From contig CACDOF010000008.1 of NCBI GenBank assembly GCA_902554315.1, forward strand, positions 1 through 35,468: a DNA stretch of 35,468 bases, written 5' to 3'. Below the pieces are notes generated by a model that had not been told where the DNA came from, made no database searches, and saw only the letters and a program-made list of their open reading frames with translations. A program made the position numbers and the translations under genes. Positions 23,342-28,600 of this stretch are shown in pieces. The DNA is from an uncultured Pelagibacteraceae bacterium. Lineage in GTDB: Bacteria > Pseudomonadota > Alphaproteobacteria > Pelagibacterales > Pelagibacteraceae. Each line of letters begins with the position of its first letter. Within the stretch, counting starts at the first letter, position 1.

Positions 23342-23889
23342 ATCTTCATTATTTCTTCTTCTTTTGAAATAACTTTTTCATCAATTTTTTTAATTTGATC
23401 GTCAGTGTTTTCTTGTATTATTTTTTCATTTTTCTTAACTTCATCTTCTGAAATATTTTTTTCTTTTAACATTTTTTTTAATTCGTCATTAGCTTCTCTT
23501 CTTATATTTCTAATAGATATTTTACATTTTTCACCTGTGGTTTTAATAATTTTTTTTATTTCATTTCTTCTTTCTTCACTTAAATCTGGAACTGGAAGTC
23601 TAATAAGCTGACCATCAATATGAGGATTAAGTCCAAGTTCTGATTTCTTAATTGCGGTATCAATTAATGTAACATTATTTATATCCCAAACTTGTATATT
23701 TATTGTTCTTGCCTCTGGAGTCGTTATGCTTCCCAATTGATTAATTGGCATTTTTTGTCCATATACATCAACTTTTACTAAATCCAACATATTGGCGTTG
23801 GCTCTTCCGGTTCTCAGAGATGCCAAATCTTGAATAAAAACTTCATATGTTTTATTCATTTTTTCTTTATATAGTTTTTCGTTAAACAT
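23338..23889 (-). CDS. frr: Ribosome recycling factor
   Basis: Splits post-termination ribosomes with EF-G. The 183 residues show the three-helix bundle plus the hinge domain typical of RRF: SLRTGRANANMLD near 25-37, VYGQKMPINQLGSIT, VWDINNV, LIRLPVPDLSEERRNEI, and the closing helix with IRREANDELKK. The start overlaps the tsf stop as TAATG. In most bacteria pyrH lies between tsf and frr; here they touch, so UMP kinase must be encoded elsewhere. Confidence 0.98.
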   Translation of the reverse strand: MFNEKLYKEKMNKTYEVFIQDLASLRTGRANANMLDLVKVDVYGQKMPINQLGSITTPEARTINIQVWDINNVTLIDTAIKKSELGLNPHIDGQLIRLPVPDLSEERRNEIKKIIKTTGEKCKISIRNIRREANDELKKMLKEKNISEDEVKKNEKIIQENTDDQIKKIDEKVISKEEEIMKI

Positions 23890-24740
23890 TACTCACCAAT
23901 CTTTATTCTAATAAATTCATTAATTTTAATATTATTTAAACCTATTTCATTTATAATATCTTTAACTTTTTTTTTTGGTTCCATTACCCAATCTTGGGTC
24001 ATCAAAGCATTTTCCTCTTTAAATTTGTTAATTTTACCTATACTAATTTTTTCAGCAATTTCAGAGGGTTTTCCTGAATTTTTAAGCTCCTCTGATATCA
24101 ATTGAAGCTCTTTATCTAAAACATTTTTTTCTATTTTTTCAGATGTTATTGCAATTGGATTGGAGGCTGCAATATGCATTGATAATTGTTTTCCAAACAG
24201 ATCGAGAACATCATTTTTATCAGGACCGTCTAAAGATACAATAACCGCAAGTTTAGAAACGTTATCTTTAATTATAGAGTGTTGATATATATAATTTTTT
24301 GAGTTTTCAATATTTATAGTTTTAATTTTTCCGATTGTAATTTTTTCTCCAATTTTGGCAATTAATGCAACAAGGTTTTCCTCTACTGTTTTGTCATTTT
24401 TCATTTTTGAGGTATTGAGTTTGCTTAAATCTGATGAACATTCATTGTTAAGTTCACTGAGCTCCTTAACAAAAGTAATAAAATCATCATTTTTTGCAAC
24501 GAAGTCAGTTTCACAATTTATTTGTATTATTGAAGTTTTTTTTTCATTACCTGAAATAACTATTACACCTTCTTTAGCATCTCTTAACATTTTTTTAGAA
24601 GCTTTTGCTATACCTTTTATTCTTAAAATTTCTACAGCTTTATCTAAATCATTGTTTGATTCTTTCAATGCAGCACTACAATCTTTAAAGCCAGCACCTG
24701 TAGATTGTCGTAATTTTTTTACTTTTTCAATTTCGCTCAT
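23889..24740 (-). CDS. tsf: Translation elongation factor Ts
   Basis: Nucleotide-exchange factor for EF-Tu. The 283 residues have an N-terminal UBA-like domain ([21 protein letters not shown]) and the EF-Tu contact motif [12 protein letters not shown] at 76-87, which are diagnostic. The C-terminal part is close to the normal length. It follows rpsB after 20 bases, the near-universal rpsB-tsf pair, so it is probably also controlled by the rpsB leader. Confidence 0.98.
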
Positions 24741-24760: not shown

Positions 24761-25549
24761 TTATTTGACAACTTCTTCAGTCTTTTTTTCTTTGATATTT
24801 TTTTTAATAACTGTTTCATTATTTTTTGGATTTAAGTCCTGATTTAAGTCTACATTGTTAGGCAGATCTTTTTTTGCATTATTAATTGTTTCTTTTAGTA
24901 GATTGCAATAAAGATCTATAGATCTCCTTGCGTCATCATTTCCAGGTATTGGATAGTCTATTCCTTCAGGATCTGAATTAGTATCTAAAATTGCTATAAC
25001 TGGAATTCCAAGTTTTACAGATTCCTTAATAGCTAATGATTCATAATTTGTATCAATTACAAACACTAAATCTGGAACTTTTTTCATATCAGCAATTCCA
25101 CCCAATGATCTCTGCAACTTATCTCTTTGACCGCTCATTTTTAGAAGTTCTTTTTTTGTAAATCCTCTGTTTTCTGATGAGAGGTCTGAATTAATTTTTT
25201 CTAATTTCTTTATTGAATTTGAAATTGTACCCCAATTAGTAAGCATCCCTCCCAACCATCTATAATTAACGTAAAATTGATTTGTTTCATTTGCTAACTC
25301 AGCTATAGCTTCAGAAGCTTGTTTTTTGGTTGATATAAATAATATTTTTCCTCCAGATGAGATGGTTGAATAAACTTTTTCTAGTGCTATTTTAGTTAAT
25401 TCTATAGTTTGTGTTAAATCAATAATATGTATTGAATCTCTTTTTCCAAAAATAAATTTTTTCATTTTTGGATTCCATCTTAAAGTTTTATGTCCAAGAT
25501 GTACTCCCGCTTCTAATAATTGTTCGATTGTTATATTTGGTATATTCAT
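24761..25549 (-). CDS. rpsB: 30S ribosomal protein S2
   Basis: The 262 residues start [20 protein letters not shown], with [52 protein letters not shown] and [23 protein letters not shown], the standard S2 landmarks. A charged lysine-, asparagine- and glutamate-rich tail of about 30 residues extends the C-terminus. Translation starts 8 bases after a GGGA-type purine block that lies at the end of a GC-rich structured leader. It is the first gene of the translation and envelope operon running to lpxB. Confidence 0.99.
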
Positions 25550-25621
25550 ATTTTTTCCCGGTTATGCCACCACAATCACTGCCACTTAAGGACCGGAGGT
25601 ATAAAACCAGAAATTGTGTGC
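25550..25621 (-). ncRNA. Structured rpsB leader RNA, possible S2 autoregulatory element
   Basis: This short leader is markedly richer in G+C than its surroundings. On the minus strand CACAAT (25618-25613) can pair with ATTGTG (25576-25571), and CCGGT inside that loop (25596-25592) can pair with ACCGG (25562-25558) beyond the stem, a possible H-type pseudoknot. The ACCGG arm overlaps the purine block just before the rpsB ATG, so folding could hide the ribosome-binding site. Ribosomal protein leaders, including one at rpsB in Pelagibacter, have been reported; I recall this but cannot verify that this is the same motif. Protein S2 as ligand is inferred. Confidence 0.6.
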
Positions 25622-25628
25622 GTGTTAA

Positions 25629-25657
25629 TTTACAGAGGTAATTACAAAATTAATCAA
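25629..25657 (-). promoter_or_regulatory. Candidate rpsB promoter
   Basis: On the minus strand TTGATT (25657-25652) and TGTAAA (25634-25629) are separated by 17 bases. The predicted start of transcription, near 25621, falls right at the 5' edge of the GC-rich leader stem, which makes the pairing more believable than a random AT-rich match. It lies in the 125-base gap between dnaE and rpsB, the largest gene-free stretch in the window. Confidence 0.5.
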
Positions 25658-25674
25658 AAAATACAAGTATTATT

Positions 25675-28600
25675 TTAATTAATTTTAATATCATCATCTC
25701 TATTCATTGAATTTACTATATTATGGTCTACTTTTCTCTTATCTTTGAGTAAAAAATGATAGACTTTTTCATCATCTTCAATTTCTAATGATACTGAAGT
25801 TTTTCCTTCAACGTTACCTAATAATTTTAATTTATCTAGATCTTTAATATCTTTTATTCTTATTTTTAGTTGTTCAATAGGTTTATTTAAAACTTCTTTT
25901 AAAGAAATGATTTTTTTTATATTTATTCTTTTTTTTGCATGATCTTCAGACGAAGAACTTTTCATTAAAGTAATCATTAAAGAATTTCCTTCTATCAAAA
26001 TTTCTCTATTAGTTTCAAATACATCTGAAAATATAAATAATTCAAAAGTTCCAGAAAGATCTGAAAATTTAACAATTGCATAAGAAGATCCTTTTTGAGT
26101 TTTTTTTTCTTGAATCTTAAGAACTGTACAAGCAATATTTGAACTTAATATATCATCGTTTTTTTCAAAATTTTCAAAATCTACAATATTATACTGATTA
26201 AAAAGTGATTTATACTGGTTTACAGGATGGTCAGATATGAAAAAACCTAAAGTTTCAAACTCTTTTGCAAGTTTTATTTCTGTTTTCCAATCTTCAGTTT
26301 TTTCTAAATAGCTTTCACTTATTTCAACATCTTCTTGAAATAAATTAATTTGATTTGCTTGATTATTTTCAAAATTATTTTTTGATTTTAAAATTATATT
26401 AGGTATTGAATTATATATGGATTGTCTATTAATATTTAAGTTATCAAAAGCACCTGCTTTTACCAAACCTTCTAATTGAAGTTTGTTTATATCTTTTGGA
26501 CTAACTCTATTAATAAAGTCATTAATATTTTTAAATGCACCATTTTTTTTTCTTTCTATTATAACGTTTGAAATTGCCTCATAACCTACATTTTTAATTG
26601 CACCTAAAGCATATAAAAATTCTTCACCATTTGAGGTGAAGTCTGCCATACATTTATTAATATCTGGCCTAATAATTTTTATATTCAATCTTTTTAATTC
26701 TTCATAAAATTCACTCAATTTTTTTTGATTAGAAAGTTCCATTGACATTGAGGCAGCGAAAAATTCGTGAGGATAATAAGTTTTTAAATATGCTGTTTGA
26801 TACGCTATTACAGCGTATGCTGCGGCATGACTTTTATTAAATCCATATTCAGCAAAAGGTTCTATTTTTAAAAAAATTCCTGCTGAAATTTCTTTACTAA
26901 TGCCATTTTTAAAAGCACCATCTACAAACCTTTGTTTTTGTTTTTCAAGTTCAGCTCTTTTCTTTTTTCCCATTGCTCTTCTCAAAATATCTGCTTCACC
27001 AGCTGTAAATCCCGACAAGATTTGAGCTATTTGCATCACTTGTTCTTGGTATATTATTACACCATATGTAGGTTTTAAAATCTTTTCTAATTTTGGATGT
27101 AGGTAATCTGGTTCTCTTATGCCATGTTTACAGTCGTTATATATTGGGATATTACTCATTGGACCAGGTCTATAAAGTGCCACTAAAGCTATAATGTCTT
27201 CTAAATGATTGGGCTTCATATGAACTAAAGCATCTTTCATTCCAGAACTTTCAAGTTGAAATAAGCCAACTGTTTTACCACTAGAAAGTAAGTCATAAAC
27301 TTTCTGATCTTCGTAATTAATACTCGTTATATTAAATTTAGGATCATTTTTGTTAACTAGTTTTTGAGTTTTATCAATCACTGTTAGAGTTTTTAATCCA
27401 AGAAAATCAAATTTGACTAGGCCAGCGTTTTCAGCTGAATACATGTCAAACTGTGTAGATGGTAAAAGTAAGTCTGCTGAACTATCTTTGTATAATGGAA
27501 CTGTTTCTGTTAATTTTTTATCAGCAATAACTACACCAGCAGCATGAGTTGCTATATTTCTATTAAGACCTTCCAATTTTAATGATAATTTAACAAGTCT
27601 ATCAACTCTTTTATCTTCATTAATTAGTTTTTGCAATCTTGGTTCTACATTTATACATTCTTGTAAACTCATGGGTCTTGATGGATCAAATGGTATCATT
27701 TTACATATACTATCTATAAAACCATACGGTAAGCCTAGCACACGACCAACATCTCTTATAACCATTCTTGCTTTAAGTTTGCCGAAAGTAATAATGTGAG
27801 CAACACTGTTTTTATATTTAGTTGTAAGATACTCAAATACTAAATCTCTCTTTTCCTCGCAAAAATCTATATCAAAATCTGGCATAGAGACTCTATCTGG
27901 ATTTAAAAATCTTTCAAAAATAAGATTGAATTTAATTGGATCAATGTCTGTGATAGATAAACACCAGGCTACTAACGAACCAGCGCCAGATCCTCTTCCT
28001 GGACCTACAGGAATTTGATTTTTTTTAGCCCATTTAATATAATCAGAAACTATTAAAAAATATCCAGAATAGTTCATTTCTTGAATTATTTTAATTTCAT
28101 GATCTAACCTTTTTTTATATAAATTATAATTTTCATTTTTTTTAAAATTATTTTCACTTTCATTAAATATATTTAAAAATCTATCCTTAAGACCTTCATG
28201 GGTTTCATTTATTAATAACTCATTAGTATTTTCATCATTAGAAGATATATTTGGTAATATAGGCTTTGATGTTGTGGGTCTAAAAGAACATCTATATGGT
28301 AAATTAAAATTATTTTCCAAAGCTTCTGGTAAGTCTTTAAAAAGTTCAATCATTTCATCAGAAGACTTAAAATAATGTTGGTTGGATAATTTTAGTCTAT
28401 TACTATCATTTACGTAAGTTTTTTTACCGATACACATCAGTGCATCATGAGCTTCATGCATTGATTTATCTAAATAGTATGTTTCATTTGTAGCGATAAT
28501 TGGTAAATTAAATTTTTTTGAAATATTTAAGTTAAAATTTTCAAATTCTTTTTCATTTATGTCGTTATGTCTTTGTATCTCAATATAAATATTATCTTTA

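Follow-up and report, generated by a model that had tools for sequence, protein, structure and literature searches.

The rpsB locus and its leader

The window (the whole stretch of 35,468 nt analysed here) carries on its minus strand a leader that lies between dnaE (29085-25675; NCBIfam NF004226, over the curated cut-off) and rpsB, and the gene order after it is rpsB, tsf, frr, uppS, with the AUG of rpsB at 25549-25547 (Table 1). In many bacteria pyrH is located between tsf and frr. Here frr comes directly after tsf (23889-23338 of the window), and pyrH is not at that position. The leader had been singled out in the initial annotation as G+C-rich within a window of about a quarter G+C, and rightly so: positions 25550-25621 have a G+C content of 44.4%, against 25.3% in the window, of whose 35397 72-nt segments 246 are as G+C-rich.

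The same annotation had drawn a stem from the words CACAAU and AUUGUG, with a loop containing CCGGU, complementary to an ACCGG just before the start codon. Both words are present (25618-25613 and 25576-25571) and the stem exists, but it is really longer than these two words, a helix (P1) of 10 bp with a bulged A. The complementarity of CCGGU and ACCGG was confirmed, and the whole fold (25622-25558, minus strand) consists of P1, a 3-bp P2, a 2-bp P3 and a 5-bp pseudoknot.

Table 1. Coordinates in the window of the rpsB leader, its parts and the genes behind it
Feature	Position	Strand	Basis
rpsB, ribosomal protein S2 (regulated gene, presumed ligand)	24761..25549	-	TIGR01011 (NCBIfam), E 7e-94
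tsf, elongation factor Ts (second gene, presumed co-regulated)	23889..24740	-	TIGR00116, E 3.3e-71
rpsB leader element (rpsB motif, RF01815-like), start codon included	25547..25622	-	RF01815 and SAR11 model R1 matches
P1 5' strand CGCACACAAUU, A25619 bulged	25612..25622	-	Rfam alignment; covariation
P1 3' strand GAUUGUGGUG	25568..25577	-	Rfam alignment; covariation
P2 5' strand GGU	25606..25608	-	covariation
P2 3' strand ACC	25598..25600	-	covariation
Pseudoknot 5' strand CCGGU, junction P2-P3	25592..25596	-	pairing in SAR11 leaders and wider relatives
Pseudoknot 3' strand ACCGG, end 8 nt before AUG	25558..25562	-	pairing in SAR11 leaders
P3 5' strand CC (2 bp, as published for P. ubique)	25590..25591	-	by eye, not counted
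P3 3' strand GG	25582..25583	-	by eye, not counted

A leader in this place might also act by transcription attenuation, since a terminator could act between dnaE and rpsB. We regard this as extremely improbable: a promoter and terminator scan (by consensus only) gave no terminator-like site in 25540-25800 and no promoter, and the bases after the fold are G and A, not U.

Comparative evidence for the fold

Alignment A1 comprises 85 distinct leaders, aligned by sequence alone, out of 103 (the window, L002-L023 and L026-L105); 15 exact duplicates were left out, as were L022, L023 and L063, which had no anchor or ran into a contig end, while L024 and L025, weak RF01815 hits, lie outside the sample. 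Over the whole structure 95.7% of cells are paired, compared with a mean of 91.9 in 500 shuffles of the alignment, 10 of the 18 pairs show changes in both partners (5.0 on average in the shuffles), and the covariation score is 0.150 against 0.085. On four of five measures the observed values were reached by none of the 500 shuffles; on the fifth, further pair types, the 16 seen in A1 are no more than in shuffles, 158 of which reach that number. When partners were slid by 1 to 3 columns, pairing fell to 33.7-53.6%.

Each helix contributes differently to this signal. P1, whose 5' strand held the anchor word by which rows were chosen, so that those columns are biased towards conservation, has 94.6% of its cells paired, with six of its ten pairs changed on both sides and four invariant; its bulged A is the same in all 85 rows. 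In P2 the figure is 92.3%, and all three pairs have changed on both sides. The pseudoknot is paired in 85/85 leaders with four of five pairs invariant, and its sole compensatory double change within SAR11 is found in one of the 85, L058 (CCUGU/ACAGG). Weak spots exist: pair 5-66 (a G-U) is unpaired in 8/85 leaders, pair 14-58 of P1 in 38/85 and pair 22-28 of P2 in 15/85. The initial annotation had staked its proposal on compensatory changes among relatives. These are present in the stem, and in the pseudoknot they come down to a single SAR11 sequence but are more frequent in wider relatives (see below), so the proposal is not refuted on this count. At the level of sequence comparison, then, covariation shows the fold, and a leader with P1, P2 and the pseudoknot stands before rpsB across the SAR11 genomes sampled.

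Folding of the single sequence gives a different picture. The leader is not unusually stable (z = +0.89; 162 of 200 shuffles equal or beat it), and its minimum-energy structure, at -18.3 kcal/mol, is a different, nested hairpin; the case for the fold therefore rests on comparison. RNAalifold, which predicts nested structures only, returned the pseudoknot helix and two further pairs from A1, with P1 absent. One may consider that the nested hairpin, UUUCUGGUU / AACCGGGAA, itself hides the initiation region, with neither pseudoknot nor S2 involved. It does belong to the predicted minimum-energy structure, yet among the 85 relatives its cells are paired in 77.1%, which equals the shuffled mean, none of its pairs has changed on both sides, and pairs 18-77 and 19-76 fail in 24/85 and 19/85 leaders, respectively. 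We thus find this explanation very unlikely, although in this clade the hairpin could still form transiently.

Identity of the leader with the known rpsB motif

Meyer et al. 2009 described the rpsB motif first from Candidatus Pelagibacter ubique (PMC2704228; Rfam RF01815), where, according to the section on this motif, it has a P1, a three-stem junction, a P2 of 3 bp, a P3 of 2 bp and a five-pair pseudoknot that joins J2-3 to the 3' extension of P1. The window leader agrees with that description in its P1, long and covarying, its short P2, also covarying, and P3 (two pairs, seen by eye only), its five-pair pseudoknot between the same segments, its SAR11 host and its place after dnaE and 5' of rpsB (identified by TIGR01011), the position of the motif, which only rarely precedes tsf; the helix lengths equal those stated for P. 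ubique. In sequence searches, RF01815 matches 25622-25543 at relaxed threshold over model positions 1-132 of 132 (30 bits, E 2.5e-4) and gives no hit in the window at its gathering threshold, the leader scoring 30 where 40 is required. This is the sole match in the whole genome at E <= 1 (E 1.9e-4). A model built from SAR11 leaders, R1, matches 25547-25625 at 94.7 bits (E 5.4e-24), a score to be read with the window sequence being part of the model's alignment. The RF01815 consensus differs in having AGgAgA after the pseudoknot strand, while the window leader continues into the AUG instead. All of the best 80 of 505 rpsB relatives have titles naming Pelagibacteraceae or Pelagibacterales. The window leader is therefore the rpsB motif, an already published folded RNA, in its home lineage, and the Pelagibacter leader from the literature to which the initial annotation referred is the very fold that it drew, pseudoknot included, as far as the published description and the RF01815 match go. 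Within the literature collection searched, Meyer et al. 2009 alone came up for this motif. With the present data the motif is confirmed across a broad sample of SAR11, and its pseudoknot gains compensatory changes.

Among genomes of the order, RF01815 finds a match in 24/61 at E <= 1 and reaches its cut-off in none of the 61, the window's own genome included; among the controls there are matches at E <= 1, too, in Caulobacter vibrioides and in Methanocaldococcus jannaschii, the latter presumably by chance. The SAR11-leader model finds far more, with matches at E <= 0.01 in 248 of 297 genomes and in 135 of the 150 with completeness of 90% or more and contamination of 5% or less. For this reason we take most RF01815 misses in the order to reflect low sensitivity or missing loci. 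Of the 49 genomes without a leader match 15 were tested for rpsB, and at E <= 1e-10 not one of them gave a match, which means that in these 15 the locus is missing, rather than the leader lost.

Relationship to wider relatives and to the Escherichia coli leader

In the class, RF01815 matches 181 of 289 genomes at E <= 0.01, 73 of them over the cut-off, and in the phylum 36/299. The model of the E. coli rpsB leader (t44, RF00127) matches 37/200 genomes in the phylum and, as controls, E. coli and Thermotoga maritima, of which one exceeds the cut-off; in the window's genome it has no match at E <= 0.01. We compared two sets of loci: 37 best-scoring RF01815 loci from other members of the window's class (alpha; 30 from the class search and 7 from the phylum search), and 31 RF00127-type loci, of which one is from E. 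coli K-12 and the other 30, presumably gammaproteobacterial, are RF00127 matches within the window's phylum. Leaders were parsed by a rule that the 3' strand begins with ACC and the 5' strand ends with GGU, which leaves only the first two pseudoknot pairs free to vary, and L170, L199 and L202 remained unparsed.

All 36 parsed alpha loci (of 37) have ACCGG with CCGGU upstream, where a locus was counted if CCGGU was present and several also hold other NNGGU words. The 29 parsed RF00127-type loci (of 31) have GGGGU/ACCCC in 13 cases, UGGGU/ACCCG in nine, CGGGU/ACCCG in three, UGGGU/ACCCA in two, and AGGGU/ACCCG, with the first pair mismatched, in two. The change of C-G to G-C at two pairs and the U-A and U-G pairs at the first one are, as comparative evidence, further support for the pseudoknot. 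The E. coli leader shares P1 with its bulged A (by eye), the position 5' of rpsB and a pseudoknot, GGGGU/ACCCC, in which two pairs are swapped, from C-G in SAR11 to G-C; it differs in having a 24-nt spacer with GAGG before the AUG. Rfam seems to have split a single family into RF01815 and RF00127. The printed RF00127 model stops two bases into the second pseudoknot strand; the RF00127 leaders L175-L204 and L167 carry both pseudoknot words.

Control by ribosomal protein S2

The E. coli rpsB leader mediates repression of rpsB-tsf by S2, with help from S1, as stated in the parts of PMC10931766 concerned with this leader; repression by S2 is also stated in section 6 of PMC2704228. The former source adds that a small deletion of a conserved upstream bulge may abolish regulation, and the invariant bulged A of the SAR11 leaders would be the same bulge. 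By analogy, S2 probably stops its own synthesis through the leader that is conserved in SAR11 and its relatives. Our main reading, to which we give a probability of about 0.85, is that the SAR11 rpsB leader is an orthologue of the rpsB motif and that its closed fold, held by S2, shuts off the production of S2 and EF-Ts. Surplus S2 (in E. coli with S1) would bind the fold made up of P1, the three-way junction and the pseudoknot and keep it closed. The closed fold reaches to 8 nt from the AUG and thus into the 30S footprint, where a 30S subunit could then not land, so that S2 synthesis and, by coupling, EF-Ts synthesis would stop. S2 as the ligand, repression as the outcome and occlusion as the mode are all what we infer for SAR11, where our literature search found no experiments on the rpsB leader; the S2 control of rpsB-tsf suggested by the initial annotation is thus known from E. 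coli (PMC10931766 and PMC2704228, in the parts cited) and carried over to SAR11 by inference. Overall its observation was right, and its interpretation is supported in outline.

An alternative is that the RNA, instead of working as a feedback operator, serves constitutively in 5' stability or processing, or is a small RNA in its own right. Rfam does type RF01815 as "Gene; sRNA", and the E. coli ncRNA tff (T44) is annotated just upstream of rpsB. However, the leader sits in front of rpsB, the last pseudoknot strand is 8 nt from the AUG in 64 of 85 SAR11 leaders (range 4-10), and in E. coli there is autoregulation by S2 (PMC10931766, same parts), which together make such a role very unlikely.

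The initiation region

The spacer between pseudoknot and AUG is shorter in SAR11 than in its relatives, where its median is 16.5 nt in alpha loci (range 8-20) and 18 nt in RF00127-type loci (range 8-25). We defined a Shine-Dalgarno core as AGGA, GGAG, GAGG or AAGG. Such a core is present in the spacer of none of the 85 SAR11 leaders and of all 36 alpha and all 29 RF00127-type loci, a contrast that for alpha is partly selected because the 3' end of RF01815 contains AGgAgA; the SAR11 spacer is also shorter. Within the last 22 nt before the AUG a core occurs in seven of the 85: L021 and L105 have a GGAG overlapping ACCGG, and five others have a core within the P1 3' strand (by eye). L021-L023, which belong to a different family of the order, share the word ACCGGAG.

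The lack of a core seems to be a trait of the lineage that is not special to rpsB, as gene starts in the window and tsf starts in SAR11 give a similar picture. GGAG, AGGA or GAGG is found in front of none of the 32 presumed genes of the window, and tsf starts, which were found in 18/81 SAR11 and 31/37 alpha loci, have a core in 0/18 and 26/31, respectively. The genome's 16S rRNA (confirmed by Rfam) keeps its anti-Shine-Dalgarno end, ACCTCCTTT. In P. ubique a probable Shine-Dalgarno is reported to follow the metY SAM-V riboswitch (PMC6061858, in the part on that riboswitch), so the absence in SAR11 is not without exception. Given those 32 genes, the "purine block" that the initial annotation took to be used for initiation is not a Shine-Dalgarno; as to its being hidden by the fold, the first two G of GGGAAAAAA are in the pseudoknot, but only those two. 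Neither section 6 of PMC2704228 nor our literature search describes the short spacer or the missing Shine-Dalgarno, and the figure or supplementary alignment of that paper may show them. They are a small lineage-specific variation on an otherwise ordinary leader. The locus also shows a probable feedback leader retained in a streamlined lineage whose examined gene starts are mostly without Shine-Dalgarno.

According to PMC10931766, again in its treatment of the E. coli leader, the details of repression are called unclear and the ribosome binding site lies outside the operator, which leaves room for modes other than plain occlusion. With a short spacer that lacks a Shine-Dalgarno, the fold itself may stand in the way of the landing ribosome instead of covering a separate Shine-Dalgarno. 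SAR11 may accordingly have a streamlined S2 operator, in which the Shine-Dalgarno was lost, the pseudoknot strand took its place and repression is a contest between the S2-held pseudoknot and 30S; we see the odds on this as even. Such an operator would compete directly with 30S, in contrast with the site outside the operator reported for E. coli, and the ACCGGAG of L021-L023, where GGAG overlaps the pseudoknot strand, is a possible intermediate. The SAR11 leader would offer a simpler setting in which to test the still unclear mechanism of S2 repression.

Spacers of 8 nt also occur elsewhere: L172-L174, alpha leaders from one family of the class, have one too but keep AAAGGA in it, and the RF00127-type L196 has an 8-nt spacer with its core kept.
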